Below the pieces are notes generated by a model. That model was not told where the DNA came from, made no database searches, and worked only from the letters and a program-made list of their open reading frames with translations. From an archaeon (lineage in GTDB: Archaea; Nanobdellota; Nanobdellia; SCGC-AAA011-G17; GW2011-AR17), in the NCBI GenBank assembly GCA_018656555.1, contig JABHZQ010000007.1:1-51911 (forward strand): a stretch of 51,911 nt of DNA, given 5' to 3'. Positions within the stretch are counted from its first letter, which is position 1. Each line of letters starts with the position of its first letter. Made by a program: the position numbers and the translations under genes. This document shows positions 34,511 through 51,854 of this stretch, piece after piece.

Positions 34511-34538
34511 AAAAATTAAATCCCATTCGGTGATATAT

Positions 34539-36038: not shown

Positions 36039-37981
36039 TGGAACAATTACAAAGATTAATTCAAGAGAGTGGCTTAGAAGATCAAGCTGCATGTAAAGAT
36101 AATATTTTGATGTTAGGAAATTCACTTTTTGAAGCTTTTGGAATAAATGGTGGATTGGAAACAGATTATGAGAGAGGTTATGAAAAAGCAAGAGAATTTT
36201 TAGGAAGAGTTTGTGGTGTTTTTGATGATCCTACTCACTTAGTTAGAATAGCACCATTTGCTTATGCTTTCTTAGGAGAGGAGATGTTTAATAGAACTTT
36301 AGATGTTGTTTTACAAAAAGCAAGAGATAATCCTGATGACCGATCAATTTTAGATCAAGTTTTTAGTGGTGCTACTTTATTGAGACCTGAACTTAGAGCG
36401 GCCTTTTTATCTGATATTAGTGCAGCAGATGTTTTAGATGATGGACTTTTTGGTATTGATGATTATATTTCAGATGTTGATCCTAGTTTACAATTTGAAA
36501 GTGCAGATGCATTTCCAAGTCAGTTTACAACTGCTAATGTTAGGAAAGCTACTGAGTTACTTGGAAAATATTTACAGATGGGTGTTTTTCGTTCTGGAGT
36601 AGGTTTTACTGAGAATTTTGAAGCATTAAATCAAAGTATGGAAGGGTTTGGATATTTGATGGAAAGATCTACTGATGATTTAACTTTAATTGTTACAAGG
36701 GATCCTGTAAAGTTTATGTCTATGGGTTTAGGTAATGTTGCTTTTACAGATAGAATTACTGCGCGACCTCAAGGTGATGGTGATCAAAAAGATTTTAGAT
36801 ATCCTGGAACTGTTCTTGTTGATGATGATGTATCTTTACAAGAGGTTCAAAGATTCTATGCAGATGCTACAGTTGTCTATCTTAATAGAGATGTTCCTAC
36901 TGGATTTGAGCATTTAGTTGTTGGTGATGATGAAGATGTTATTGGAGCCCATTTAAGATTTATTTCAAAGAATCGGAAAGAAGGCTTGGTTCATCTTGGA
37001 GCTATGTTAGAGGCAGAAGTTAGAAATGCTGAAGATTTAGTTAGTAGAGGGAATGAATATTTCTTAGATGTAAGAAAAGGATTAGAAGATTTAGGAAGAA
37101 GAGATCTTATTGATAGAATGGTTGAAGCTGGAGGATATAGTGTTCCTCACAGAACTGATGCTAATTTAATGGTTTTAGTTTCTCCTAAAAGAAAAGATTT
37201 AGCAGATATATTTGAAGGAAGAGCTGGAGCGGATAAGAGAATGATGTTTTATAGAGAATTGCCTACTATTGAAGATACTGGAATGCCTTTTGTTTTTGTG
37301 ACAACTGAAGCAATACCTCAAAGTGAAATACTTGCAGCTTATCCTTCTGCAACTATCTTGTATGTTGCTGAGAATGATGCTAAGGAAAAAGCAATTTTAG
37401 CGGTTGATGAGAATGCTTTTGTTGTTAATGAAAAAACTGTTGCACCAAGAGGTAGGTTTAGAGGTACAGATAAAGGTAGAGTTGGAGATTGGGTTGTTAA
37501 TAGTTTCTTTGATAGAATTGCAAGAGCAAGAGGAGAAGGAATTACTAGTATGTATGATATTGCAAGAGGAATATCTGATGAAGTGAAAGATAGAAGAGAT
37601 AAAATAATGTTTGCAACCCATCTTAGAGGTTTTTATGATGAAGCAGCCCCTTATTATCGACTGCAGGAACAATTTGGACAGATGCCATTAGTTTTGCAAT
37701 TGACTGATGGTGTTCTTATGGAAAGTTGTCCAACTGGTGGATGTTTTAATTTAGATGCACCAGACACTGGAGGTTGTTGTGGTGGGGGAAATCTTCCAGG
37801 AGTATTGATTGATTTTGCAATTGCATATAGAAAACAAGTAGGTGAAGAGAGGTTTATGCGGGAATTAACTGCATATCATGATGGAGACGTAAGAGAACCG
37901 TGGTATTTTGATAGTACCCACTATCAAAGACACTTTAAAGGTTTGACAGAAACAGCAGATCAAGATGGAATGATCTTATAA
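36038..37981 (+). CDS. 647-residue protein with internal duplication and CPTGGC Cys-rich motif
   Basis: Not recognised. The N-terminal 210 residues are helical. Two similar segments follow, at about residues 214-310 (LTLIVTRDPVKFMSMG ... YADATVVYLNRD) and 376-475 (LMVLVSPKRKDLADIF ... YPSATILYVAEND). Each looks like a small alpha/beta domain ending in a 'DE-x-(V/F)' strand. Near the C-terminus Cys564 and Cys569 (SCPTGGCFN) and Cys580-Cys581 (TGGCCGGG) form a Gly/Cys-rich loop that could hold a metal, an Fe-S cluster or a persulfide. The same CPTG-x-C motif opens the JAMM protein two genes on. Position directly after the desulfurase suggests a sulfur acceptor or scaffold; this is inference. 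Confidence 0.75.
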   Translation: MEQLQRLIQESGLEDQAACKDNILMLGNSLFEAFGINGGLETDYERGYEKAREFLGRVCGVFDDPTHLVRIAPFAYAFLGEEMFNRTLDVVLQKARDNPDDRSILDQVFSGATLLRPELRAAFLSDISAADVLDDGLFGIDDYISDVDPSLQFESADAFPSQFTTANVRKATELLGKYLQMGVFRSGVGFTENFEALNQSMEGFGYLMERSTDDLTLIVTRDPVKFMSMGLGNVAFTDRITARPQGDGDQKDFRYPGTVLVDDDVSLQEVQRFYADATVVYLNRDVPTGFEHLVVGDDEDVIGAHLRFISKNRKEGLVHLGAMLEAEVRNAEDLVSRGNEYFLDVRKGLEDLGRRDLIDRMVEAGGYSVPHRTDANLMVLVSPKRKDLADIFEGRAGADKRMMFYRELPTIEDTGMPFVFVTTEAIPQSEILAAYPSATILYVAENDAKEKAILAVDENAFVVNEKTVAPRGRFRGTDKGRVGDWVVNSFFDRIARARGEGITSMYDIARGISDEVKDRRDKIMFATHLRGFYDEAAPYYRLQEQFGQMPLVLQLTDGVLMESCPTGGCFNLDAPDTGGCCGGGNLPGVLIDFAIAYRKQVGEERFMRELTAYHDGDVREPWYFDSTHYQRHFKGLTETADQDGMIL

Positions 37982-38002
37982 TAAAATTTGGAGGCAAATA
38001 AA

Positions 38003-38692
38003 ATGGCTACATTAGGAGCATGTGGGGATGAAAGACCTGAAGATAGAAAAGCAGAGCAAAAAAGAGCAAAAAAAGTACATAAATTCAACGAGATAGGAGA
38101 GATGCCAATTACAATGGTTGCTTATCCTGGATGTATTGAAGGAGATAGAGTTCCTGTTTCTGTTAAAGGTGATGATAGAGCAGTTTTACTTTTTGGTACA
38201 GCAGACATGATTGCAAGATATGTAATTGGAGAAGAAGTTGCATTACCAAAAAAAGGTAAGGGTATTAAATCTATTCCTAAAGCACTTAGGGGACAAACAT
38301 TCAAAAGAAATGTTACTAGAAGATATGAAGAACCAGTTGAAAGAATTGGAGATGAAATGCATGGAACTGGTGGAGTTGGAGAATTAGCTAAGAGACAAAA
38401 TAAAACCTATAAGGGATATACTCTAAAAGCTAATGGTGACAGTTTAACTGCTGACTCTATTGTGAATAGTTACTTCACAGAGATGGTCTTTGTTGAGGGC
38501 CCAGAAGGTAGACCAGTACCTAAATCTGTTGATGACCTTGTTGCTGAAGATGTAAAAATCCTTAGAAAAGATCAGGAAGTTCATGTTTTAGGTGGAGTTG
38601 AAATGGTTATAACTGCGATTCTTGTTTCAGGACAATATGAACCTGCAGCAAAAACCCCTGCATATGGAGATGACATTACATCAAGAATATGA
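38003..38692 (+). CDS. 229-residue protein, candidate ubiquitin-like modifier precursor
   Basis: Starts at the ATG at 38,003 (MATLGACGDERPEDRK) behind GGAGG at 37,990-37,994. After a charged N-terminal segment come two similar-sized beta-rich parts, residues about 33-110 (MPITMVAYPGCIEGDRVPVSVKG...) and 135-210 (TYKGYTLKANGDSL ... LRKDQEVHVLGGVEM). The second part ends in LRKDQEVHVLGG, Gly197-Gly198, followed by a 31-residue extension; another GTGG lies at residues 121-124. A ubiquitin-like precursor cut after Gly-Gly by the JAMM protease would look like this, but the beta-grasp fold is not proven from sequence. Its stop overlaps the E2-like start (ATGA). Confidence 0.75.
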   Translation: MATLGACGDERPEDRKAEQKRAKKVHKFNEIGEMPITMVAYPGCIEGDRVPVSVKGDDRAVLLFGTADMIARYVIGEEVALPKKGKGIKSIPKALRGQTFKRNVTRRYEEPVERIGDEMHGTGGVGELAKRQNKTYKGYTLKANGDSLTADSIVNSYFTEMVFVEGPEGRPVPKSVDDLVAEDVKILRKDQEVHVLGGVEMVITAILVSGQYEPAAKTPAYGDDITSRI

Positions 38693-40137
38693 GTCTAGAA
38701 ACAACATTTTTAGATAGGATTGCTGAGAGGCAATCCTCTTTTGTATTATTTAAAGGTCAGGCTTATGCTATTACTGAAGATCCAATTAATGGAAATTTCT
38801 TGGATATTATGGGAAGCAGAATGGCTTTAGTTCCTTCTATGCCTTTTAGAGATTTTGAAAGGTTAGATGAACAACTTTATGGGGCTGATGTTGAAAACTA
38901 TTGTGCTAGATATGTTCGTGAAAAAATTGATAGTGAATTAAGAGCTGAAGATGAAGTAAGAAGAGAAACTTCTCGAATTAATACTTTAAAATATTTAATG
39001 GATAGATTATTACCTCATTTAGTTGCAAAAAAATATAGTTCTGATGAAATACTGTTACATGAGGTTCTTGGAACTGAAGTGGATAAAGGTCCTGTGGATC
39101 TAGCACGAGATGAAATAAGAGAAAAACTAAATCATGATTTTGGTGTTGAGGATATTGAAGTTGATGAAGATCCTGCTGAGAGAATGAGAGCTAATGTTTT
39201 GGCGAGAGAGAAAGGAGAGTTAGATAGAGCACCTTTAATGGGTGAAGCTGGAGAGTATGATTCTGTTTTACAGGCTGTTATAGGTAATCAACCAATTTAT
39301 GTTATGGATGGTAGATTGTATGCTCTTGAATCTCCGGGTGATATTGAAAGAGGAAAATTTACATTTGTTATGGGTGGTAGAGCTTATACTCCTTCAGAGA
39401 CAAGACTTCCAAGTTTAAGGGAAGTATCTCAAGAAATTTTGGAAAGGAGAAAAATGGTTTGGAGAATTGCTGCTCTTGAAAGGAGTCAAGATACTTTTGC
39501 AGGTATAAGAGATCAGATTCATACTGCAGAAGTTACTGAAAGACAGATGCATGAGTTGGCTAAGTTAGAAGAATTTGATTTAGGGAGTTGTGGTTTTGTT
39601 TTGAAAGATGGTTCTTATTATGTTTATTCAAGAGTTCCTAAGTTTGCAACACAAGATGGAAGAGATAAGGATGTTTTTTGGCCTTATGATGCAACAAGAG
39701 TTGCAATTAAGATTGGGTGGAGTGGGGGCCAAGCTCATAGTAGTGGTGATGGAGTTGTTATTGAGAAGAGAGAGTTTCATCCTTGTTTAAGAAATAGATC
39801 TAGTGGAGGGTGGAAAGGAATTTGTAACTTAACTCGGGGAGCGAGTGATTATGGAAAAACTCCTGCAGAGATGGTTAGAAAACTTTCTGATGCTGTTACT
39901 GTTATTACTGAACCTTTGTCAGAAATAAGTTTGAAAAGGCATGGGAGTCCAGGTAGTTATTCTTATTTTGGGGATAGTGTTGAGTCTATTTTAGGACAGG
40001 GTTCTCTAACAAGAGAAGAAGCTGAAGAACAAGGTTATGGTATTGTTGAAGTTATTGCAAAAACTTTGGAGTTAGAAGATTTACCAGAAATTGAAGAAGT
40101 GGAAGATGAGGGAGAGGATGGAAAAGTAGAGGAGTAA
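38689..40137 (+). CDS. E2 (ubiquitin-conjugating)-like protein
   Basis: 482 residues. Residues about 300-420 carry an E2-type pattern: LKDGSYYVYSRVPKF, DVFWPYDATRVAIKI (compare 'YPF.PP.V.F.T'), then FHPCLRNRSSGGWKGICNL with His364-Pro365 and the candidate catalytic Cys379 in GIC, as in the E2 signature 'HPN...G.IC', and a following helix (TPAEMVRKLSDAVTVITEP). The N-terminal 300 residues contain an internal duplication: FVLFKGQAYAITED...MALVPSMP (residues 18-65) and IYVMDGRLYALESP...AYTPSETRLPS (198-260). The C-terminus is acidic. The neighbouring E1-like and JAMM genes strongly support a conjugation role. The family assignment is from pattern, so it is probable but unproven. Confidence 0.78.
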   Translation: MSLETTFLDRIAERQSSFVLFKGQAYAITEDPINGNFLDIMGSRMALVPSMPFRDFERLDEQLYGADVENYCARYVREKIDSELRAEDEVRRETSRINTLKYLMDRLLPHLVAKKYSSDEILLHEVLGTEVDKGPVDLARDEIREKLNHDFGVEDIEVDEDPAERMRANVLAREKGELDRAPLMGEAGEYDSVLQAVIGNQPIYVMDGRLYALESPGDIERGKFTFVMGGRAYTPSETRLPSLREVSQEILERRKMVWRIAALERSQDTFAGIRDQIHTAEVTERQMHELAKLEEFDLGSCGFVLKDGSYYVYSRVPKFATQDGRDKDVFWPYDATRVAIKIGWSGGQAHSSGDGVVIEKREFHPCLRNRSSGGWKGICNLTRGASDYGKTPAEMVRKLSDAVTVITEPLSEISLKRHGSPGSYSYFGDSVESILGQGSLTREEAEEQGYGIVEVIAKTLELEDLPEIEEVEDEGEDGKVEE

Positions 40138-40141
40138 AAAA

Positions 40142-41923
40142 ATGGTTAAGAAGAAGAAGAAAAAGCAAGTAGATGATGAATGTCCTACTGGAGTATGTGG
40201 TTTAAATGGTGTACATAATGGTGGGTATGATGATGATGGTGATTTTGGTGATGAATTATTAGATATGGTTATGGGTGATGATGAGCCTAAAGTAGAAAAA
40301 GTTCCTGCTTTAGTTGATTTACTTCCTGCACAATTAGTAATTGAGGATAGGGCTTTACAGTTAGGTTATATGATTGGTCCTTTGACTCAACAGCATTATA
40401 AAAAAGCTTTAGAGGTTGGTGGATTTCTTATTGTTGATAGAGATGCTCCTGCCCATTATTTAGATTTTGCTATTCCTCATGGTTTACCTGTTACTTCAGG
40501 AACTGTTGTTATGGCTGATCATTATGATAATGTTGCTGTCGAGAATCGAGCTAATAATCAAAGAAATGGCACTCATCTAAAAATTGGTGCTATGTTTCAT
40601 ATTCATCCAAGTAAGGGAAATCAAGGTTTGTACCATAGTGGACAAGATGATGCTGCAAGTTTACAGTTACTTGGACGAATGGCAAAAACTACAAGAGTGG
40701 TTCATGAAGCTAAATTTCCTTTGTTTGAAGAGGCAATGAGAACAGAGTATGGTGAGGGCGAGTATGTTTTAAGAGGAGATGCTTTGAGTGATGCTATTCA
40801 GAGATTTGTTTATCCTGATGAACAAATGTTTAAAGAAGTTCTAAGAAGTTTTGGAATTAGAGTTCCAAGAGAGCTTAATAGAGATAAATTTTTAGGAAGA
40901 TTATTAGATACAATTGGAAAGGATACTCTTGAACCTAGAAAGGTGAATTATGCTGTTAGTTTTGTTTTTAATAATGGTGGAAAAGGACCTTATGTAAAAA
41001 TGACTGCTGAAGAGCGGTTTGCTATTTCAGGTAAGAAGAATGTTACTACTATTGATAATAGAAGTGGATTAAGTATAGTTAAATCTAATGTTGGAGTAAA
41101 TTTACCAACAGAGGAAGAAGTTTTGGCTCTTATTGCTGAGAGAGTTGTCTATAATCCTCCTAAGCCCCCTGCTAAAAAAGTTATTGGTGCAGGAGGAAGT
41201 CAAGGGGGATGGCAAAGTTGGGGTAGACAAGGTGTTGCTGGTGCTATTGGTCAATGGTTAGATGGTACAGGACAGGCTGGTGGTGCAATTCCTCTATCAG
41301 GAAGTAGTACTTATTATACTAGACCTGTAAGAAAAACTGTTGCTGAAAGAATTGCAAGTTTGGATGCATTGGTTCAAGCACAAGAACCAGATGATCAATC
41401 AGATGTATATGCAGAACTTATGGGTGAAGAGGTAGAACCTGTAAGAGCTAAACCAAAAGCTAAATCTAATCTTGATGTTATGGACAAAAGTGAAGAAGCA
41501 ACTTACACCAATGTGGAGATTATTGATCTTTTTGTTTTAAAGTTAGGAGCTTACATTACTGAAGCTAGACATAGTTGGGCAACTTATTCAACTTACCTTT
41601 ATGAATTGTTTGATGAGGGAATTGGAACCTATACAAAAAAAGATGGTTATGTGGGATTAAAAGATAGTGTTATGGAATTGGGTGAATTGGTTCAAGATAA
41701 TCCACAAATTGTTGAAAGACATACTCTGAGACCCTATAAATTTGGGCATGCAGGTGAAAATTTGATTAAAGAATATATGGCAGAGCGAGATGAGAGGACA
41801 GTTGACTTTATGTTATCTTTTGGTTTAGCTGCTGGATTCCCTGAAATGGATGCTGCTCTTGAAAGTTATGTGCAAGATGTGTTAGATTATGATCAAGAAG
41901 AAGCACCCGAAGGAGTAGAATGA
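40142..41923 (+). CDS. JAMM/JAB-domain metalloprotease
   Basis: 593 residues. The zinc peptidase motif is complete: Glu91 (LEVGGFLIV), His153 and His155 (MFHIHPS), Ser166 and Asp169 (HSGQDDAAS), the E...HxHP...SxxD signature of Rpn11- and Mov34-type deubiquitinases, with a slightly long loop between HxHP and S. The N-terminus is lysine-rich followed by ECPTGVCGLNG (Cys14, Cys19), echoing CPTGGC in the 647-residue protein. A Gly/Ser-rich linker (residues 340-400) leads to a helical C-terminal domain. Expected to mature a ubiquitin-like precursor or remove it from targets. Stop overlaps the E1-like start (ATGA). Confidence 0.88.
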   Translation: MVKKKKKKQVDDECPTGVCGLNGVHNGGYDDDGDFGDELLDMVMGDDEPKVEKVPALVDLLPAQLVIEDRALQLGYMIGPLTQQHYKKALEVGGFLIVDRDAPAHYLDFAIPHGLPVTSGTVVMADHYDNVAVENRANNQRNGTHLKIGAMFHIHPSKGNQGLYHSGQDDAASLQLLGRMAKTTRVVHEAKFPLFEEAMRTEYGEGEYVLRGDALSDAIQRFVYPDEQMFKEVLRSFGIRVPRELNRDKFLGRLLDTIGKDTLEPRKVNYAVSFVFNNGGKGPYVKMTAEERFAISGKKNVTTIDNRSGLSIVKSNVGVNLPTEEEVLALIAERVVYNPPKPPAKKVIGAGGSQGGWQSWGRQGVAGAIGQWLDGTGQAGGAIPLSGSSTYYTRPVRKTVAERIASLDALVQAQEPDDQSDVYAELMGEEVEPVRAKPKAKSNLDVMDKSEEATYTNVEIIDLFVLKLGAYITEARHSWATYSTYLYELFDEGIGTYTKKDGYVGLKDSVMELGELVQDNPQIVERHTLRPYKFGHAGENLIKEYMAERDERTVDFMLSFGLAAGFPEMDAALESYVQDVLDYDQEEAPEGVE

Positions 41924-43377
41924 CAAAAGAAGTACAAACTGGAATGATTGAAGAAGATCGATATAGAAGGCAGAAACTTATTTGGGGAGATGAAGGACAA
42001 GCAAAACTTGATAATGCAAAAGTTGCTGTTATTGGTCTTGGTCCTCAAGGAATTTATAGTGCCTTGTGTATGGCTGCTTTAGGTATTGGTAATATTGTTC
42101 TAGTTGATGGTAATAATAGTGATGTTGGAGAGATGTTCCTAGATATGGATGTTCCCCAAGGTGCAAGAGGAGATGTTTATCCTGAATTGTTAAGAAGAAT
42201 AAACGCTCAAATTGGTATTCAAGGTTATGCTACTAACTTAGAAAGTTCTATTGATCAATTAGCATTAAGTGGTGCGAATGTTATTGTTGATGCTACTAAT
42301 AACCAGAGATCTAAAAGATTAGCTCTTGCTTTTGGAAGAGAGAAAGATATTCCTGTGTTGAGTACTTCTTCAAGATGGGGTTATACTAAACTTATGTTGG
42401 GAAGTGAGGGAAAGGAGCCTGAAATGTTAATGCCAATGTTTGAAGGACATGAACAAGATCCATTAATGGCTTTGGTAATGGCTGGAATTGTAACTGAGAA
42501 AGTTAAGAAGTTAGCATTTGGAAGTTTGGATGAGGTTATTAGAGATCCAATTAGGTATAGACTTGGTGGGAAGAGGTTTGGATTTCCAGATGTAGATGAA
42601 GAGATACCTTTACCAAATTATGATTTGTATAGAGCATTGAATATTTTATTTTTAGGAGAGGGTGCATTAGGAAATTGGGCTACAATTGCAATGTCCCATT
42701 TAAGACCTGGAAGAGTTGATAAGGTCGACTATGATATCTTTGAATCACATAATATTAATAGACAGGTTTTGGCTTATGATGGAATTGATGCAGAAAAAGC
42801 TGCACACCTTGCTGAAAAATTAAGAAGGATGACAAAAGGTGCTACAGAGAGTGAAGGTTTTAATGTAAAGATTCTACCTGGTTTTTCTCTTGAAAGAGAG
42901 TATGATTATGTTTTTGATCTTGTTGATAATTTTTATACTAGGGCTGTGAATAGTGCTTTTGCTGTGAATAATCATATTCCTCTTGTTAGTGCTGGAGCAG
43001 GAGCACACGGTGGAAGATGGGATGTTCATGTTGAAGGAGAAACTCAATGTATGGGTTGTATGTTTGATATTTATGAAAGAGGAAGAGAGGAAGAGATTAT
43101 TAGAAGAGTTAGTTGTGCTGCTAATCCAAATCCTGCTGTTGTTATGAGTAATGCTATTGCTGGTGTTGCTGCTGTTTTAGAATTATTTAGTTTAGTGGAA
43201 CCTGAAAAATATGGTGGAGCATTTAATGGGGAGCAAACTTATAGGGCTGTGGGTAAGGTTAGGTTAGGTACTTCTCCTTCTAGAGGAGCTTGTGATTGTT
43301 ATTCTAATGAAGCTCCAAGTTTAGAGATTAGTGAGGCAGAGGTTGCAGCTTATACAGAGGCAGGAGGGGAGAAGTAA
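41920..43377 (+). CDS. Two-domain E1/ThiF-like activating enzyme
   Basis: 485 residues with two Rossmann domains of the ThiF/E1 family. Domain 1: YRRQKLIWGDEGQAKLDNAKVAVIGLGPQG, nucleotide loop at residues 39-44. Domain 2: LFLGEGALGNW, loop at 246-251, then VDYDIFESHNINRQVL with Asp270/Asp272 and Asn280-Arg281, the adenylation residues. CxxC (Cys377, Cys380) and CDC (Cys458, Cys460) are likely zinc ligands; Cys399 in VSCAANPNPAV is the best candidate for a thioester cysteine. The order of a first, less canonical domain and a second, complete domain resembles the inactive and active adenylation halves of eukaryotic E1. No ubiquitin-fold domain is seen. Activates the C-terminus of a ubiquitin-like protein with ATP. 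Confidence 0.88.
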   Translation: MTKEVQTGMIEEDRYRRQKLIWGDEGQAKLDNAKVAVIGLGPQGIYSALCMAALGIGNIVLVDGNNSDVGEMFLDMDVPQGARGDVYPELLRRINAQIGIQGYATNLESSIDQLALSGANVIVDATNNQRSKRLALAFGREKDIPVLSTSSRWGYTKLMLGSEGKEPEMLMPMFEGHEQDPLMALVMAGIVTEKVKKLAFGSLDEVIRDPIRYRLGGKRFGFPDVDEEIPLPNYDLYRALNILFLGEGALGNWATIAMSHLRPGRVDKVDYDIFESHNINRQVLAYDGIDAEKAAHLAEKLRRMTKGATESEGFNVKILPGFSLEREYDYVFDLVDNFYTRAVNSAFAVNNHIPLVSAGAGAHGGRWDVHVEGETQCMGCMFDIYERGREEEIIRRVSCAANPNPAVVMSNAIAGVAAVLELFSLVEPEKYGGAFNGEQTYRAVGKVRLGTSPSRGACDCYSNEAPSLEISEAEVAAYTEAGGEK

Positions 43378-45845
43378 TGGAGGAAGAAGAAGATTTTATT
43401 CTGGATCTATTTGAAGAGTCTCTAGATGCTGGGAAAAAAGAGGAAGTAATTGCTTGGGAAGCTCCTGCAGTTAATAGAGTTGCTAGGGTGTTGGAAGAGG
43501 GTAGGAGAGATGTTACTAATTATGATCCTTTTACAAATATTTTAGTGGGTTATTTAGTTAGAGAGGGGAGGAAAGGTTTGGTTGGAGAGTTGAATGGAGT
43601 TAGTCAAGAAGATAGAGTTAAAATATTATTAGCTGCTGAAGCTTTGGCTCCACATAGAGTTAATCCAAAAGTTAGCGATGTTGAATCTTTTGAAGATTAT
43701 ATGGGTGCAGTTGGTGTTGCATTTGGTGAAAGATTAGGAAGAATGTTGAGGTTGGATATGGAATTTAAGGGTGTTGAAGAAGCTAAAGCAGAAGGAGTTG
43801 AATTTGTTGATGAAATTGATCCTTTGTTTAGTGGTTTTAGAGCTGAAACTTTAATTGCTGCTAATGTTGTTTCTAATTTAGTTGGTGAGGTTGAGGTTGG
43901 AAGTTATGATGAATTAGCTAGAGCTGCTTTCTTAAATTTTAATGGTAGTGAAGGAAATGGAGTTTTAGATGTTACAAAAGTTCTTGTTGAAAAAAGTTTG
44001 GGTGCAGCAGATGTTGATTTAGATGTTGATACTGCTGTTGCAAGATATCAAGAGATTTTAGTTTCAAGATTTGGTTTTACTCAAGATTTGATTACTCAGT
44101 TAGAAAGGTTTCAAGGAATGACTTTTGATTTTAATGGAATGTCTAGAATGATTAGAACAGAATTTGAAGAGAGAACTGGTTATGTTCCTAATATTGGAAC
44201 TCATTATGATAGAAGAGCATATGAAAGATTGAAAGGAGAACTTCTTGAATTAGATGTAAAATTGTTTAAACCTCTTCCTACTGAACCGACTCAACATTTT
44301 AATAGTAGAGATTGGGCAAGACCACATCAGGCTATGGGTGAAGGTGGTAAACGTTATCATAGAAGAAGAAGTGAAACTATTGAAAAGCTTCCTCTTGGAA
44401 CTGTGGGTCATCTTGATGGTGATCATGATTTTGTGCCGACCAATAAAGGAGGATACTTTCATTTAAGATATAGAGAGTTGCAAAAGTTAGAAGAGGTTAT
44501 TCTTGAGGTTGCTGGGGCGGGTGGAGATTTTAGAAGAGGAGATAGAGTTAAACTTGTTAATAATTTAGGACCTCAATCACATTATGATACTGATGAATAC
44601 TATTATGGTGGAACTATAAGGGAAATGAAGCTAGGAATTGAAGGAGAGGTTATAACTGGAGATGATAGAATGGTTAGAATAGAGTTTCCGAGAAGAGCAT
44701 GGAATTGTCATCCAGATGAATTGAAAAACTTAACAAGAACTCCAGAAAAAATAGAAGATGAAAAAGATGAAAGAGAAGAATTGAAAGTTGTTATGGCTGA
44801 AGTTGTTAGTGGGGCTGAAGCTGATTTTGAGAGAGCAAAAGAGAATAAGGAAAGGTTGGTTAGAGATGGTGTTGATACTTTTAGAGCAATGGGTGTTGAT
44901 GATGGAGTTATAAGGTATTTCTTTGATCAATATTTAGATGATGTTGCTGAGTTTGGAGATTTTATGCCAGAGGGAACTATCTTTAATGAAATTATGGAAA
45001 TACAAGAGAGTATGAATTATGGTGGGCTAAGAGATAAAGTTGTTGCATTGGTTAAAGATAGGATGGATGTTTTAGTTAAAGTTGATGATGTAAGAGATGC
45101 TGGAGAGTATGGTAAGTTTAAGGAAGATCTTGTTGATAGAGTTTTACATGGATTTAAGGATAAAAAAGGTAAGAAAACTGAAGGGTTTGAAAGAGGAGAA
45201 CCAGTTATGTTGGATGAAGCTCATGGAAAATATCCAAAGGGAACTATTGCAATTTATCATGCTGATTGTGGGGATGATCATCATGTTGATTTTGATGATG
45301 GGGCTACTGATGTCCATATAGATGAAAGAGTGATAGGTGTTGCTGCTGCTTATGCTTTACCTAAGATTCCTACTGCATATGAGGGGATGAAAAAAGGAGT
45401 AAGGGTTAAGATTAGAAAAGATAGTGAGTATGCTCATCAAAATGATGGAGAAGGAGTAATGGTTAATAATTTTGGGGATGAAGAAGGAGGAAGAGAGCTG
45501 TGGGCCAAGGTTAAATTTGATAAGGGTAGAGGTAATAATTATAGGGAAAAAGATTTAGAACCGGTTGATCCTGCTAAATTAACAGGAAGGAAATTAAAAA
45601 AATATAACAAAGCTGTTGCTGCAATGGAAGAGTTGAAAGTTGGGATTGAAGAACAGTTAGGTCCTATAATTGCAGAGGCTGAGAGAGATCATGCTGATGT
45701 TAATAGAAGATTAGATGATCTTACTATGAAAACTATTGATACTTTTAGAAGTATGGGATTTGAGGATGAGGCTATTGGAACTATGTTTAGAGAAAACATG
45801 GGAGATACTTCTTATTTGAGAGAGAGGGAATTGTTAGACTATTAG
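43377..45845 (+). CDS. 822-residue protein with SH3-like (MIB/HERC2-like) barrels and MGF repeats
   Basis: Not recognised as a whole. Residues 1-375 are helical, with a FGFTQDLITQLERFQGMTFDF stretch that aligns with segments of the two following radical SAM proteins. Residues 388-454 are a barrel (GDRVKLVNN...EYYYGG...GIEGEVI...WNCHPDELKN) also present in those proteins. Two more barrels follow, at 604-652 and 670-730; the last (GVRVKIRKDSEYAHQNDGEGVMV...KVKFDKGRGNNYREKDLEPV) resembles the MIB/HERC2 domain of ubiquitin ligases. Two repeats DTFRAMGVDDGVI and DTFRSMGFEDEAI look like the MGF loop of UBA domains. A recognition or ligase-like adaptor is possible. Starts one base inside the E1-like stop. 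Confidence 0.75.
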   Translation: MEEEEDFILDLFEESLDAGKKEEVIAWEAPAVNRVARVLEEGRRDVTNYDPFTNILVGYLVREGRKGLVGELNGVSQEDRVKILLAAEALAPHRVNPKVSDVESFEDYMGAVGVAFGERLGRMLRLDMEFKGVEEAKAEGVEFVDEIDPLFSGFRAETLIAANVVSNLVGEVEVGSYDELARAAFLNFNGSEGNGVLDVTKVLVEKSLGAADVDLDVDTAVARYQEILVSRFGFTQDLITQLERFQGMTFDFNGMSRMIRTEFEERTGYVPNIGTHYDRRAYERLKGELLELDVKLFKPLPTEPTQHFNSRDWARPHQAMGEGGKRYHRRRSETIEKLPLGTVGHLDGDHDFVPTNKGGYFHLRYRELQKLEEVILEVAGAGGDFRRGDRVKLVNNLGPQSHYDTDEYYYGGTIREMKLGIEGEVITGDDRMVRIEFPRRAWNCHPDELKNLTRTPEKIEDEKDEREELKVVMAEVVSGAEADFERAKENKERLVRDGVDTFRAMGVDDGVIRYFFDQYLDDVAEFGDFMPEGTIFNEIMEIQESMNYGGLRDKVVALVKDRMDVLVKVDDVRDAGEYGKFKEDLVDRVLHGFKDKKGKKTEGFERGEPVMLDEAHGKYPKGTIAIYHADCGDDHHVDFDDGATDVHIDERVIGVAAAYALPKIPTAYEGMKKGVRVKIRKDSEYAHQNDGEGVMVNNFGDEEGGRELWAKVKFDKGRGNNYREKDLEPVDPAKLTGRKLKKYNKAVAAMEELKVGIEEQLGPIIAEAERDHADVNRRLDDLTMKTIDTFRSMGFEDEAIGTMFRENMGDTSYLRERELLDY
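44538..44740 (+). repeat. Shared SH3-like module, copy 1 (in the 822-residue protein)
   Basis: Codes for EYYYGG, then LGIEGEVI, then WNCHPDEL. The same spacing of Y-x-YGG, LG-x-x-GE and W-x-x-HPDE recurs in the two downstream radical SAM proteins. Confidence 0.75.
44871..44940 (+). repeat. Internal helical repeat with MG(V/F) motif, copy 1
   Basis: Encodes DTFRAMGVDDGVIRYFFDQYLDD. It matches a second copy at 45,735-45,800 (DTFRSMGFEDEAIGTMF) and is preceded in both by a charged helix. Confidence 0.65.
45384..45567 (+). other. MIB/HERC2-like domain within the 822-residue protein
   Basis: A GxRV start, a 'DGEG' turn, a (W/V)-K-F-D-x-G strand and NNYREKDLEPV end follow the order of MIB/HERC2 domains ('G..V.RG.D....DG..G.V...W.NG..N.YR...DL'). 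Found by eye, so a profile search is needed. Confidence 0.5.
45735..45800 (+). repeat. Internal helical repeat with MGF motif, copy 2
   Basis: Encodes DTFRSMGFEDEAIGTMFREN near the C-terminus. MGF between two short helices is the classical UBA loop. Confidence 0.6.
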
Positions 45846-45854
45846 GAGAAAAAA

Positions 45855-47254
45855 ATGAAAAATAGAACACTAACCTTGGTAAATGTTGTTAATGATGGCG
45901 ATTGTATAGAGCAACAAGAATGCCTGCACTATCTCTGGCGTATTTAGCTGCTCATACACCTGAAAATTGGGATGTAAAAATAGTTGATGAAACTGTTGAA
46001 CCCTTTGATGCATGGAAACATGTTGAAGGTTCAGATATTGTTGGATTCAGTGGTGGAAATGTATGTAATATTCATAGACTTACTGATCATATTTCTAGAG
46101 TTACAGAATATGATCAAGTTATGGGAGAAGAAACTCCAATTATTTTAGGTGGATATGTTGGCGGATTAAATATTGAAGGATTACCTAATAGAGTGGATGC
46201 TAGAGTTATTGGTCCTGGTGAATTAGCTTTACAAGAATTACTAGCTGATTTTGAAAATGGTGGAATGAAAAGAGAGTATGTTGGTCAAAGAGTTCCGATG
46301 AATGAATTAAGGACTCCTGATTTCTCTGGATTTAATGTTGCTGCTTATGGTAAAAATGTTAATTGGCCTGTAATGACTTCTGTAAGTTGTGGAAATACTT
46401 GTGGATTCTGTAGTGCAAGAGTTGTTTATGGTGATGGTTATGCAAGTAGATCTCCTGAAAAAGTTCTAGCAGATATGGCACAATTTGATCCTGATACTAG
46501 ACTTTATTTTGTAGACCCTAATGTTTTGCAACTTTCAAGAAATGGTAAAAGAAGAGCTAGAAAATTGTTTAAAGGCATGGCTAAACAAAATCATCCTTGG
46601 TTTGGATCTGCAACTTTTAGAGTTTCTGAAGATGAAAGAATGTTAGAAGCAATGGCAGAAAGTGGATGTAAGGGTTTGTTAATTGGATTTGATTCTGCTC
46701 TACCTGAAAGTTTACAGACTGTATCTGCTCCAAAATATAGAGTAAGAGAGGATCAAACTTTAATTGAATATTATGTTGAAGGTGTAAAAAGAATACAAGA
46801 AAAGTTTGGTATTGATGTTTTGGGAACTTTTGTTATTGGTTTTGATACTGATGATGAAAGAACTATTGCAAATACAATTAGGGTTGTTCAAGATTCTGGA
46901 ATGAAAGATGCACAGTATTTACCATTTACCCCTCTTCCAGGTACACCATCTTATAATGAAATGGAAGCAGCAGGTAGAATCATAGATCATAATCTTAATC
47001 GTTATGATTTTACTGATGTTGTTTTTAGACCACAAAATTTCTCTGGTGCAGAATTAAGAGATTCATTAGTAAAGATGTATGATGAAACCTTCCCCAGAAT
47101 GTTGGCAATCTATAGAAGATTTGGTTTGGTTAGAGATAGACCTGAATTGATTAAAGTTGAATCAATGAAGTTAAGAGCTGAAAGAGAAGAAAGAGCAGCA
47201 AGGGAAAGAGAAAGGAGAGGGAGAAGAAGGGGTGGAGGCGGAGGACATCATTAA
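45855..47254 (+). CDS. B12-binding radical SAM protein with apparent frameshift
   Basis: The radical SAM part is intact: CxxxCxxC in SVSCGNTCGFCSARVVYG, then GSATFRVSEDERML, GFDSALPES and GTFVIGFDTDDERT, with an N-terminal cobalamin-type domain (LYRATRMPALSLAYLAAHTPENWDVKIVDETVEP, GFSGGNV, IILGGYVGGL). The long frame opens only at a TTG (45,902) in mid-domain. The missing first strand, MKNRTLTLVNVVNDGD, is encoded in another frame from the ATG at 45,855 behind AGGAG. The frame changes by -1 near 45,897-45,902, so one base seems to be missing or the ribosome shifts. The tail is RRGRRRGGGGGHH, a basic, Gly- and His-rich end. No slippery heptamer is seen. Substrate unknown. Confidence 0.82.
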
Positions 47255-49524
47255 TGGAAGCTGCTTTACAACAACCTTCAACAGGAGATGCAATTGATAG
47301 TTTACTTAGGAAGACCTATCAATTAGTTGCACAAGATAGGATGCATCAGATTGCTGAAATAACTGGTAATCAAGGTTTAGTTCAAGAGTATGGTTCTGGT
47401 GTGAATAGTATCATAGATTTAGAATCACTTTTTGCATTTGCAGGAGAGTTACCTTCACAAGAAGTGCTAGCTCGTATGGTTAAAGCAAAAATTGTTAGTA
47501 AATATGGAGAGGGTGTTGGGGAAGAGGTTATAAGAGTTGAAGAGAGGAGAGAAAGCGAACTTGCAGATCCTCCTGTTGATTATGGTATGTTTGTTGGTGA
47601 GATTAGAGAGGGAATAAATGATAGATTTAGAATTAGTGTTCCTGAAGTAACTGTTCCAGGAAGAGAGGGTTATGGAAAACATAAAACTGAACTAGAAAGA
47701 ACTGTAGCAACAGAAATAGAAAGAAGATTAGATGGGAATTATGGAGAAATTATAGAAGTTACTGAGCTGGCTGGTTTTGATATGGATACTTTAGATCCTG
47801 AATATCATTATGGTGGAAATGAAGATGATCTTGCATTAGGAAGTAGAGGAGAAATTATTGAGGTTGGAGCGGATAGGTATTCTGTTATGGTTGATAGTGT
47901 TGAATGGCAATTACATCCTGATGAAGTTACTCTTACTGGTGAGAACAAATATGCTGGAGTGGATGTTGTTAAGGTTGTTAGAGATATAATTCAAACTGTT
48001 GAAGATAATAAAATGGAAGCTCATATTGCAGGGCAGATAGCAGCTATTAATCAAAATAGAGATAGAGATTTAGATATACGAACTCGTATTTTTAGAGAGG
48101 AATATGGATTAAGTATTGATCAAATATTGGCCATGCATAGAGAAGAAGATTTTGAATATGAAGTTCCAGGTCTACCTAAAGTTGGACCGGGTCTTGTCCC
48201 ATTTAGTGATTTGTATAAATTATTAGCAAAAGCTATTAGTCAAAGAACAGGAAAGGAAATATTGGGTGGGGCTGATGAAATCACTACTAGTGGTGAATTT
48301 AGAATTAATGTTACTGAAGCTGCTGATCATCTTGGTGTTGATAATGATTTGGTTTTAAGAGTTAGTAGTGAAGTTGCAGATATCTTAGATAAACAACACT
48401 ACCTAAAAGGTAGAGAATATGCTGCTAGAAATGGTGCTAAAGATGTTACAAGAGCTATGATTGAAGAAATGTTAGGTAGAGATGGTCTGCCTTGGACTAG
48501 AAGACTTGTGCTATATGCTAACAAAGATGTATATGAAGGAGGAGATCCTTTTGCACCTCCCTCTGAAGAACTATTCAGAGTTATAAAACTTGAAGTTGGT
48601 GGAGGTTGTGCTTATGGAAAATGTACCTTTTGTATGGAATATGCTGGTGCACCTTTCTTTGTTCATAAACAGGCTAAGTTTGAAGCCCATGCAAGAGAAG
48701 TTAAGAGATTGTTGGGAAGTGATAGTGAATATATTAGGAGAGTCTTTCTTTCAGGAGGAGATACTTTTGCTCTTCCAACAAAAAGATTGAAAGGTTATCT
48801 AAGCACTGTTAATGAACTTTTTAATGATGGTTATGAGAGAAATATTAGAAGAGTTGAAGCTTTTTCAAGAACAGAAGGAATTACAAGAAAGAGTGTTGGT
48901 GAAATTAAAGATTTAGTTGATCATAATCTTAGACTTCTTTATTGGGGAGCTGAAACTGGATCTGATGAACTTTTGGCTTATGTAAATAAGGGTATTACAA
49001 GAGCTAAAATGGATAAAGCTATTGCTAAATTAACAAGCACTTCGATGATGGTTTCTATTATGATTATGCCAGGGTTGGGTGGAATGAGATTTTATGATCA
49101 ACATGTAAGAGAGACAGTAGCTCTTGTTAATGCTTTGAAACCAAGATGGACAACTTTCCATACAATAACTCCAAAACCAGGAGCAAGATATGGTAAGATA
49201 ATGGCTGAAGAGATGGCTGCAGGAACTAATAGACCTCTAACTGAGGAAGAGGTTGTTGAACAGATGCATGATATTGTTGCAGGTATGCGTACAGGTTATA
49301 GAAATTTGGTTGCAACTTATTATCCACCCTCTGCAAAGATTGCAATTAATCCAGTTACATTTAGAGGTTATATGCATAGGGGAAATGGTCAATTTGGAAT
49401 TTTGACTGAATTGAAAGAGTGGTTTAGCCTAGGGGAGAGAGTACCAAGTCAAGATTTAGTTGATACTGATTTTAATAAAGGGAGTGGAATAAGAGCTTTG
49501 GCTAGAGGTGGAGAAGCATGGTAG
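47254..49524 (+). CDS. Radical SAM protein with N-terminal accessory modules (paralog 1)
   Basis: 756 residues. Residues 1-430 are accessory: a helical start (DSLLRKTYQLVAQDRMHQI), the shared barrel at 174-231 (EYHYGGNEDDLALGSRGEIIEV...WQLHPDEVTL), and REEYGLSIDQILAMHREEDFEYEV. The radical SAM core begins at FRVIKLEVGGGCAYGKCTFC with Cys452, Cys457 and Cys460, a CX4CX2C spacing seen in some COG1032-type proteins in place of CX3CX2C. FLSGGDTFALP, WGAETGSDELLAYVNKG and MIMPGLGGMRFYDQH follow. Paralog of the next gene, which it overlaps by 7 bases. Likely acts on a protein or peptide delivered by the accessory part; that is inference. Confidence 0.85.
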   Translation: MEAALQQPSTGDAIDSLLRKTYQLVAQDRMHQIAEITGNQGLVQEYGSGVNSIIDLESLFAFAGELPSQEVLARMVKAKIVSKYGEGVGEEVIRVEERRESELADPPVDYGMFVGEIREGINDRFRISVPEVTVPGREGYGKHKTELERTVATEIERRLDGNYGEIIEVTELAGFDMDTLDPEYHYGGNEDDLALGSRGEIIEVGADRYSVMVDSVEWQLHPDEVTLTGENKYAGVDVVKVVRDIIQTVEDNKMEAHIAGQIAAINQNRDRDLDIRTRIFREEYGLSIDQILAMHREEDFEYEVPGLPKVGPGLVPFSDLYKLLAKAISQRTGKEILGGADEITTSGEFRINVTEAADHLGVDNDLVLRVSSEVADILDKQHYLKGREYAARNGAKDVTRAMIEEMLGRDGLPWTRRLVLYANKDVYEGGDPFAPPSEELFRVIKLEVGGGCAYGKCTFCMEYAGAPFFVHKQAKFEAHAREVKRLLGSDSEYIRRVFLSGGDTFALPTKRLKGYLSTVNELFNDGYERNIRRVEAFSRTEGITRKSVGEIKDLVDHNLRLLYWGAETGSDELLAYVNKGITRAKMDKAIAKLTSTSMMVSIMIMPGLGGMRFYDQHVRETVALVNALKPRWTTFHTITPKPGARYGKIMAEEMAAGTNRPLTEEEVVEQMHDIVAGMRTGYRNLVATYYPPSAKIAINPVTFRGYMHRGNGQFGILTELKEWFSLGERVPSQDLVDTDFNKGSGIRALARGGEAW
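47773..47946 (+). repeat. Shared SH3-like module, copy 2 (radical SAM paralog 1)
   Basis: Encodes EYHYGGNEDDLALGSRGE followed by W-x-x-HPDE and TGEN. Near-identical to copy 3 in its first half, and related to copy 1. Confidence 0.85.
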
Positions 49525-51854
49525 CACAATTAGATCCAGGAATAAGTATAGGAACAACAACAAAAGTTGATACTACTTTTGATGATTTGTTTAGTACATT
49601 CTATAGACTTGCTGCTCAAGATAGTTTGATAAGAGCTATGGGTCCATTAAGAGAGACTGATGCTTTTGGTGAATATCAAGCACGAGTGTCTGATGTTCAA
49701 GACAGAGATAGTTATGATTCTTTTATGGGTTCTTTACCAAGTAATGCAGATATTAGAGCTGTTGTTAAGGCTGAAATTGTTGAAGCTTATGGAAGTTTTG
49801 ATGGACAGATAGGTGAGATTGAACAACAAAGAACTGCTGCATTAGAAAATCCAGAAGTTTATTATCCTGAATTTACTTCAGCTGTTATAGAAAGAGTTAA
49901 TGAAAGACTTGGTACTGATCTTGAAAGAGTTCCAGCTTCTAAAGATGACTATCCAACTTTTATAGGACTTTTGGAAGATGGTGTTAATCTATCTCTTGAA
50001 GAAAAACTAACTCCAGTAAATGGAGTAAGATATGCTGATGTTGTTGAAGTTACTAATATGAATGGATTTGATACATCTAATTTGGAGGATGAATATCATT
50101 ATGGTGGAAATGAAGATGATCTAGCATTAGGAAGTAGAGGAGAAGTCATTAATATTGTCTCTGGAGTTAGATATACAATTGTAGTTGATGGAAAAGAATG
50201 GCAAATTCATCCTGATGAGATTCAAGTTACTGGCGAGAATAGATTAGTTGCTTTGGTTGGTGAGGGAGATTATGGGGCAGCAGTAACTGCTTTTGTTGAT
50301 GGAATTGTAGAAGAGTTAACTCCTGAATTTATTGAAAGAGCTCGGGCTAAAATAGGGCAAGGTTTTGATGCTAAGGTTGTAGCAGTTACAAAAGAATTAA
50401 AAATAAAATATGGGTTGGTTGCTGAACAAGTAAGAGCCATTCATGCTGGAGAAGATTTTGTTTATGAGGTTGAAGGTGGAAGAGATGAAGGACTAACTTT
50501 ACCTTTTCAAAGATTAGCAAGTTTAGCTCTTAAGGCTTTAGGTTATAAAGTTGATAAACCTACAGTTACTATTCAAATTGGTTCTATTAAAAATGAAGAA
50601 GGATTTATAGATTTTGTATTAAATTCTGCTAAAGAGTTAAGAAATAAAGATTATGCTGGACTTGCAGGAGAACAGATGGATGTTTTATCACTTTTATTGA
50701 ATAATGAGTATGATGCAGTTAGTAGAAGATCTTTGCAAACTGGAGGAGAAAGACAGGGTCATATTTTAGAGGATACAATTGATGCTTGGATAAAGACAAG
50801 AACAACTGGTGGACAACTAGGAACTGCTTTTTCTTTAAATAGAGCTTTACTATATCATGATCAAGATATTTTTAGTTCAGTACCTTTTTCACCACCGTCT
50901 GAAGAATTACATAGAGTTATAAAATTAGAAGTTGGAAGTGGTTGTAGTTATGGTGCTTGTACTTATTGTACTGAATATGGTAGAGTGGATTTTACAATTA
51001 GAAAACTAGATGATTTTAGAGCACATGTTGCTGCAGTAAGGAAAAAAATGGGCAGAGATGTTTATAATATAGAAAGACTCTTTTTAGCTGGGGGAAATAT
51101 TTTTGCAATGCCTACTAAAAAAGTTCTTCAGTATAATGATATTGCAAGAAATGCTTTTAGAGGAGATACAGATATTAGAAGAATTTCTGCTTTTACAAGA
51201 ACAGAAGGTTTAGCTAAGAAAAGTGTTGGAGAAATTAATGACATTGTGGGGCATGGTTTGAATATGGTTTTCTGGGGTGTTGAAACTGGTGCAAATTCTG
51301 TTTTGGATTATGTAAATAAAGGAACAACTCATGAAAAAATGATGGAAGCTGCTTCAAAAATACCTAATAGTAATATGCAAGTTTCTGTTATGATCATGAC
51401 TGGTTTAGGTGGATTAAGACATTATGAAGATCATGTTGTTGAGACTACAAGATTATTGAATGCTATGCAACCTAGATTTGTTACTTTCATGACTGTTAAT
51501 CCAAAGCCTTGGTCTGTTTATGCAAAAAGAATGGCTGAAGAGATGGAAAGAGGAGAGAATATGCCACTTACTGATGAGATGGTTGTTGAACAGATGTATG
51601 ATATTGTTAGAGGATTAGATAGCAGGGCTTGGAGAGGACATAGATGTCTTGTTGGTGCTTATCGATTGCCTACTGAGAAAGTTGCAAATAATCCTGTTGA
51701 ATTTAGAGGAAGATTAGAAAATCATGGTGGTAAGGGACAAATATTAACTGGTTTACAAAATTTATTTAGAGGAGATTTTCAACCAAGTCCTTTGATTCCT
51801 GCTGGTGAGTTTAATAGAACCGGGAGTAGAATAAGAGCTATGCTCGAGGTTTAA
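49518..51854 (+). CDS. Radical SAM protein with N-terminal accessory modules (paralog 2)
   Basis: 778 residues with the same layout as the preceding gene: helical start (FDDLFSTFYRLAAQDSLIRAM), barrel at 183-241 (EYHYGGNEDDLALGSRGEVINI...WQIHPDEIQV), KIKYGLVAEQVRAIHAGEDFVYEV, then the radical SAM core with Cys476, Cys481 and Cys484 in GSGCSYGACTYC, FLAGGNIFAMP, WGVETGANSVLDYVNKG and MIMTGLGGLRHYEDH. The two proteins differ most in the 240-430 region, so they may act on related but different sites or form a heterodimer. The ATG at 49,518 lies inside the previous gene's last codons. Confidence 0.85.
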   Translation: MVAQLDPGISIGTTTKVDTTFDDLFSTFYRLAAQDSLIRAMGPLRETDAFGEYQARVSDVQDRDSYDSFMGSLPSNADIRAVVKAEIVEAYGSFDGQIGEIEQQRTAALENPEVYYPEFTSAVIERVNERLGTDLERVPASKDDYPTFIGLLEDGVNLSLEEKLTPVNGVRYADVVEVTNMNGFDTSNLEDEYHYGGNEDDLALGSRGEVINIVSGVRYTIVVDGKEWQIHPDEIQVTGENRLVALVGEGDYGAAVTAFVDGIVEELTPEFIERARAKIGQGFDAKVVAVTKELKIKYGLVAEQVRAIHAGEDFVYEVEGGRDEGLTLPFQRLASLALKALGYKVDKPTVTIQIGSIKNEEGFIDFVLNSAKELRNKDYAGLAGEQMDVLSLLLNNEYDAVSRRSLQTGGERQGHILEDTIDAWIKTRTTGGQLGTAFSLNRALLYHDQDIFSSVPFSPPSEELHRVIKLEVGSGCSYGACTYCTEYGRVDFTIRKLDDFRAHVAAVRKKMGRDVYNIERLFLAGGNIFAMPTKKVLQYNDIARNAFRGDTDIRRISAFTRTEGLAKKSVGEINDIVGHGLNMVFWGVETGANSVLDYVNKGTTHEKMMEAASKIPNSNMQVSVMIMTGLGGLRHYEDHVVETTRLLNAMQPRFVTFMTVNPKPWSVYAKRMAEEMERGENMPLTDEMVVEQMYDIVRGLDSRAWRGHRCLVGAYRLPTEKVANNPVEFRGRLENHGGKGQILTGLQNLFRGDFQPSPLIPAGEFNRTGSRIRAMLEV
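50064..50240 (+). repeat. Shared SH3-like module, copy 3 (radical SAM paralog 2)
   Basis: Encodes EYHYGGNEDDLALGSRGE, then W-Q-I-HPDE and TGEN. Confidence 0.85.

Follow-up and report, generated by a model that had tools for sequence, protein, structure and literature searches.

A candidate adaptor encoded beside the E1-like gene of a ubiquitin-related archaeal operon

By what means the Ubl systems of prokaryotes select their targets in the absence of E3 ligases is, in our view, an open question. In the window (the whole stretch of 51,911 nucleotides analysed here), the E1-like gene of a ubiquitin-related operon is followed by the gene of an 822-residue protein, T822. It joins a helical domain, encoded next to E1 in relatives, to SH3-like barrel candidates of a type that other archaea carry on E2-like proteins, and is thereby a candidate for the specificity factor that these systems seem to lack. 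The initial annotation had placed the T822 reading frame at 43377-45845 and this was borne out: the ORF is single and intact, and an ortholog in another genome could be aligned with it at 29% identity across residues 2-814. The ATG of T822 overlaps the stop codon of E1 as TAATG and is preceded by GGAGG. The six full family members aligned show 22-36% identity to the window protein, and a seventh, in locus L034, matched nearly end-to-end at 7.5e-39.

The operon and its conjugation genes

T822 is gene 7 in a compact run of + strand genes that extends from 34530 to 51854 in a source genome of 1.08 Mb that is 97.7% complete. A SufS-type desulfurase, a Cys protein, a Ubl candidate of 234 aa, an E2-like protein, a JAMM protein and E1 are encoded before T822, in this order, and three radical SAM proteins after it (Table 1).

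Table 1. Coordinates of the features discussed. Positions without prefix are those of the window; L numbers designate loci.
Feature	Position	Strand	Basis
SufS-type cysteine desulfurase, opens operon	34530..36038	+	profile match, conserved context
Cysteine-containing protein, no family	36038..37981	+	accompanies operon in 4/6 T822 loci
Ubl candidate, 234 aa	37988..38692	+	hhalign with relatives' Ubl candidates, probability 93.7
E2-like protein, HPC...GIC site	38689..40137	+	motif-level only
JAMM/JAB protein	40142..41923	+	sequence motif; relative matches Prok-JAB
E1-like protein, two tandem ThiF domains	41920..43377	+	profile match
T822 (822-aa protein)	43377..45845	+	ORF, single and intact
N-dom, helical, residues about 1-240	43377..44096	+	profile matches downstream of E1
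Helical unit X1, residues 240-300	44094..44276	+	hhalign 240-330 vs 455-600, probability 93.0
Barrel candidate b1, residues 330-376	44364..44504	+	hhalign with b2, probability 86.6
Barrel candidate b2, residues 384-452, 'YYYGG...W..HPDEL' type	44526..44732	+	profile matches elsewhere
Helical repeat h1 with MGV, residues 464-530	44766..44966	+	hhalign
Helical unit X2, residues 536-600	44982..45176	+	hhalign
Barrel candidate b3, residues 603-657	45183..45347	+	model of residues 539-822
Barrel candidate b4, residues 670-732, initially annotated as MIB/HERC2-like	45384..45572	+	profiles, model
Helical repeat h2 with MGF, residues 735-822	45579..45842	+	models
B12-binding radical SAM protein	45902..47254	+	profile match
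Radical SAM protein with b2-type barrel at 47743-47943	47254..49524	+	
Radical SAM protein with b2-type barrel at 50037-50237	49518..51854	+	
AAA+ ATPases, ClpX-like	L036:599-2182, L043:6111-7475, L080:2473-3627		inside or next to Ubl operons
AAA+ ATPases, OB-AAA proteasomal-ATPase-like	L038:10156-11649, L055:14289-15770		next to Ubl gene

E1, E2 and JAMM genes had initially been noted as neighbours of T822, and the first and the last of these assignments hold. An E1-like adenylating enzyme, as found in Ubl-E2-JAB-E1 operons, is certain from Pfam (ThiF at 1.6e-36, two ThiF stretches). In UBA1 the N-terminal adenylation half is inactive and the C-terminal half active, and inspection of the window E1 by eye indicates a similar arrangement, the adenylation motif being lost in the N-terminal half and kept in the C-terminal half. 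The JAB/JAMM protease of such operons is present as well. The window protein itself had no Pfam match and was assigned by motif (E91, HIHP and HSxQD, by eye) and by homology to a relative's JAMM at the equivalent place, which matches Prok-JAB at 9.7e-5, slightly below Pfam's own cut-off. The E2 assignment stays at the motif level: H-P and, about 14 residues later, C were invariant in nine chosen rows, no E2 family appeared among the Pfam matches of 16 members, and the PDB profile search returned no E2. The C of 'HPC' in the window protein is F in most relatives, and C379 (window numbering), predicted by motif, was taken as the likely catalytic residue rather than the 'HPC' Cys.

The Ubl candidate of the window is related (hhalign probability 93.7) to proteins of 113-149 aa located just upstream of E2 in L034, L035, L036 and L038. 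Three of these four proteins end in GG followed by 5-6 residues, the one in L038 having GA; the Ubl candidate of L055 ends in GG plus three residues, and in that of the window one Gly ('VSG') precedes a tail of 19 residues. Pfam gave no RING family in the window operon, and PADLOC returned generic E1 and desulfurase matches only.

The other genes of the run admit a reading in which the Ubl would be a sulfur carrier fed by the desulfurase, T822 serving as a scaffold that joins the radical SAM enzymes and E1/Ubl. The desulfurase and the Cys protein occur in 4/6 T822 loci, radical SAM genes adjoin T822 in 5/6, and a barrel is common to T822 and radical SAM proteins; such genes would also be in keeping with a sulfur or cofactor pathway. 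Against this, the operon has a JAMM protein and an E2-like protein whose Cys is retained, the Ubl core was also found in L034 to L045, where desulfurase and radical SAM matches are missing, and L010 and L033 have no desulfurase within the stretch examined. We consider the sulfur-transfer reading unlikely.

The operon was also found in L010 (JANQNG010000051.1, a 'Candidatus Nanoarchaeia' MAG) and L011 (JABHLH010000014.1, an archaeal MAG), from which the host was taken to be a DPANN archaeon. The E2 profile matched in 3/103 genomes of the order, once weakly, and in 17/371 genomes sampled across the phylum; the T822 profile matched in 7/378 genomes sampled across the class, in some of them by the barrel part only. 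The system is therefore rare and patchy. No match was obtained by tblastn with T822 in phages or plasmids, with short T822 patterns in public named genomes, or among viral contigs with E1. Horizontal transfer was considered from base composition and rejected: the G+C of the operon was 0.356 versus 0.321, a difference too slight to build on, and of ten other loci the operon was slightly above its flank in eight and below it in two. Elsewhere in the window, positions 14799-15980 (- strand) encode a lamin tail domain protein (LTD, 1.2e-13).

Barrels and helical repeats of T822

Beyond its N-terminal domain (N-dom), T822 consists of four SH3-like barrel candidates and of duplicated helical units. 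Comparison of its parts with hhalign indicated that this region is repetitive, with probabilities of 97.3 for h1/h2, 93.0 for X1/X2 and 86.6 for b1/b2; b3 and b4 did not match the other barrels (0.3 to 14.8). The full-length model (mean pLDDT 41.2) was of too low quality for a structure search. In a model of residues 539-822 (mean pLDDT 55.6), both b3 and b4 contain strands. For b3, it matched the barrels of L21e, Spt5 KOW and NdhS at Z 4.7-5.8, a range called common by the tool. For b4, six strands are predicted, at a model pLDDT of about 36-57, and the best PDB match of the b4 profile was PsaE, an SH3-like barrel, at E 0.002. The barrels are thus probably SH3-like, and they probably number four, not one.

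The family label initially given to the barrel pattern at residues 670-730, MIB/HERC2, fared less well than its fold. MIB_HERC2 (PF06701) had no match at E<=1 in T822 or any of six orthologs, and none above the cut-off in the b4 segments, the best value being 0.067 in one of six; nor was there any match in 11 genomes, the control genomes being also without match. Mind bomb SH3 repeat reached 0.086 in one of six members (Pfam). Among PDB matches, HECTD1 appeared with b4 at 0.46 and 1.1, and MIB1 was the top match of a b2 profile of 10 rows, at 0.029. With 6 or 17 rows, MIB1 was absent at E<=10, and NfeD and L21e were listed with 17. Foldseek on the C-terminal model returned HERC2 chains at E 0.2-0.43, which is not significant; the Foldseek and VIA searches of this model covered mainly b3, so that missing UBA or MIB rows say little. 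As the weak matches (0.03-0.5) vanish when the alignment grows, membership of T822 in MIB/HERC2 is not established by these comparisons.

The initial annotation had also proposed UBA-like MGF repeats. The repeat itself stands, since both segments, 495-530 and 785-815, fall within genuine copies of it (hhalign 97.3). Its motif reads MGF at 793 in the second copy and MGV at 505 in the first, and by shuffling the occurrence of MG[FYV] twice is borderline at the composition of T822 (P about 0.05). UBA domains have a conserved MGF/Y loop and form a compact bundle of three short helices. MG[FY] was found in only 2/12 repeat copies, with Gly in 11/12, so that a conserved loop of this kind is not a feature of the family. 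The predicted T822 hairpin is also unlike the compact UBA in its first helix: both models place the second motif at the end of a 55-56-residue helix, after which come two short helices (737-792, then 797-808 and 810-821 in the model of residues 539-822, with a pLDDT of about 76-87 over residues 759-808). When repeat segments were compared with Pfam, UBA (0.017), WIYLD (0.025), UBA_3 (0.06) and UBAP-1_UBA2 (0.12) were each matched by one of the 12; of the seven families listed, four have names that denote ubiquitin binding. This is suggestive, and a short MGF-like motif could cause such matches. UBA was not matched by the whole T822 or by six orthologs, and a PDB profile search of the repeats gave no UBA, the top match being topoisomerase V (0.0013 over 17 residues).

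That T822 could be a true ubiquitin-ligase-like protein, with MIB/HERC2 and UBA domains homologous to the eukaryotic ones, is very improbable. Every one of the values that point to MIB1, HECTD1, HERC2, Mind bomb or UBA falls short of significance, MIB1 is lost at 17 rows, and the PsaE, L21e and KOW barrels score equally well or better. The alignment of six orthologs further contains no column with Cys in at least four of them (one His column is present in 4/6). The conserved zinc-binding or catalytic Cys of RING or HECT proteins is absent from T822 and its orthologs, and a RING or HECT mechanism is therefore unlikely.

The N-terminal domain and the b2-type barrel in other genomes

N-dom has an acidic start, followed by a 'DPVxKIASIL'-like motif, and is encoded just downstream of E1 in 15/17 loci with an E1 match. 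The exceptions are L044, with a weak match (0.041) two genes further on, and L045, with none. In a leave-one-out assay, each of the 12 trained members was recovered at E 2e-5 to 3e-34, and the profile also matched L035, L038 and L040, outside the training set, at 4.6e-10 to 5e-23. N-dom is a gene of its own in L036, L043, L041 and L042 (273, 296, 354 and 342 aa, respectively), and in L036 and L043 the same operon carries separate barrel genes. N-dom and barrels are thus fused in T822 and split elsewhere. No NCBIfam model matched three of the stand-alone N-doms. Two further candidates for N-dom were rejected: the gene following E1 in L081 and its L083 homolog gave no match by hhalign, and neither did the helical tails in L055, though the N-dom HMM scored one protein of L055 at 0.0038. 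One Ubl locus, L044, has a protein kinase gene (L044:1917-3635) three genes downstream of E1.

Short acidic amphipathic N-termini are alike in JAMM proteins and N-dom, for example at 40142 and 43377 of the window, and look UIM-like by eye. With a hand-placed N-dom motif, JAMM N-termini scored above shuffles (z 5.0, 6/15 at p<0.05), those of E2 hardly so (z 2.0, 1/14) and those of E1 not (z -2.0, 0/15). An unsupervised search settled on another N-dom motif, for which JAMM gave no signal (z -0.6). The statistics being mixed, an acidic N-terminal motif common to N-dom and JAMM is a lead only.

The profile of the b2 barrel (10 rows) matched 22 places, spread over 10 of 371 genomes, and nine of these matches were training rows. 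Twenty of the 22 lie in loci with E1, E2, JAMM or Ubl; the remaining ones are in L083, near a contig end, where the gene resembles that following E1 in L081, and in L078, elsewhere. Seven matches were at places unused for choosing loci; five of them fell in Ubl loci, four of these five being N-terminal in E2-like proteins (L079 twice, L080 and L082). L079 (G210:C29) had also weakly matched the E2 profile in the phylum-wide search. In L055, three stand-alone barrel proteins flank E1, and other carriers of the b2-type barrel are the two window radical SAM proteins and a 455-aa protein in L010. The b2-type barrel marks these systems and is nearly confined to them. Two of its carriers may be described further. 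The L010 protein (L010:4218-5585) is encoded upstream of the Ubl gene on the opposite strand; it has a Cys/His pattern that is papain- or transglutaminase-like by eye, with no Pfam match. The L078 protein (L078:7227-8540, contig 7 of the source genome) has 437 aa, is probably mostly helical and lies away from the Ubl operon.

AAA+ genes were found in 5/23 Ubl loci, those in L055 and L080 being called by motif only. Their presence argues against an E3 role for T822, as it would better fit a receptor: T822 and its split relatives would bind Ubl-tagged proteins and pass them to an unfoldase or to the proteasome, with the unfoldase coming from elsewhere for the T822 loci. Consistent with this reading, the AAA gene lies between the N-dom and barrel genes in L036 and L043, a 20S proteasome is present in 16/16 genomes searched, and UBA-type families are the best weak Pfam matches of the helical repeats. 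ClpP matches were partial and obtained in 5/16 genomes, the ClpX-like proteins being without a clear ClpP. However, neither the window operon nor the other T822 loci have an AAA+ gene, such a gene is absent from 18/23 loci (many of them truncated by a contig end or by the limits of the stretch examined), and the MGF loop is not conserved. The receptor reading appears to us doubtful. The ClpX-like and proteasomal-type ATPases of sister loci hint at a possible outcome of tagging.

An adaptor role for T822 and known systems

T822 is very probably a component of the Ubl system, and it looks like a dedicated, fast-evolving and non-catalytic adaptor in a ubiquitin-related protein-tagging system of archaea with small genomes. 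Our preferred reading, to which we give a probability of about 0.5, is that of an E3-like targeting adaptor. N-dom would dock on the E1/E2 machinery, and the barrels and helical arms would hold a target, or the barrel-bearing radical SAM partners, near the E2-Ubl thioester, T822 acting as a scaffold-type E3 devoid of RING or catalytic cysteine. The fixed place after E1 and the history of fusion and splitting indicate that N-dom and barrels act with the conjugation enzymes, and the barrels carried by E2-like proteins in other genomes lead to the same conclusion from the other side. The E3- or receptor-like component initially suggested is in this respect a sound proposal, as T822 belongs to the pathway and its barrel type is also fused to E2-like proteins; its role is what we infer. 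Several points weigh against an adaptor. Neither binding nor activity can be read from the sequence, the barrels are without an established family, and the ligands of SH3-like barrels are diverse, RNA being among them. In addition, two E1 loci are without a clear N-dom, E2 is assigned at the motif level and the structure models are poor.

More tentatively, a branch of small archaea may run its own Ubl tagging with specificity provided by a private barrel-helix toolkit, which would be a RING-free prokaryotic solution to the E3 function. In this toolkit a single barrel family would be attached to E2s, to an E1-linked helical subunit (T822) and to radical SAM enzymes, and would also occur as separate genes between JAMM and E1; some members would have a connection with unfoldases of the ClpX-like or proteasomal type. 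The barrel module, present both on E2-like proteins and on an E1-adjacent subunit of the same systems, offers a concrete and testable candidate for specificity.

MIB1, HERC2 and HECTD1 are eukaryotic E3 ligases with MIB_HERC2-type SH3-like barrels. T822 has in common with them the presence of SH3-like barrels in a ubiquitin-type pathway, but has no significant sequence match to them and is without the conserved Cys of their RING/HECT parts. The E1/E2/RING ubiquitylation cascade of an uncultured archaeon (PMC5654768) is reported to be an archaeal E1-E2 pathway using a small RING E3, whereas the window operon has no RING family. We did not find, in listings of open-licence papers, any description of an archaeal Ubl set with a barrel toolkit.

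The BilABCD system of bacteria (PMC11354881) also comprises a Ubl, an E2, a JAMM and an E1, BilD, in which the N-terminal adenylation domain is inactive and the C-terminal one active, as appears by eye for the window E1. The four-gene BIL operon, as described, has no T822-like adaptor, and the BIL E2 has a CEHH motif, of which none was seen by eye in the window E2. The closest precedent is provided by row 6d of Iyer 2006 (PMC1779556), bacterial Ubl-JAB-E1-E2 operons that encode a rapidly diverging, largely alpha-helical protein. The row 6d operons differ from the present one in being bacterial, in an E2 without the classical His (HP is mostly kept here) and in a helical protein thought to be an enzyme, and barrels, radical SAM proteins and desulfurase are not described there; the helical protein is likened to N-dom by its description. 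Common to both are a JAB, an E1-like protein, a diverging helical protein, an E2-like protein, assigned here by motif, and a separate Ubl with C-terminal Gly, which here is a candidate. Because operons of Ubl, JAB, E1, E2 and helical protein are described in Iyer 2006 (PMC1779556), the kind of system to which T822 belongs is already known.
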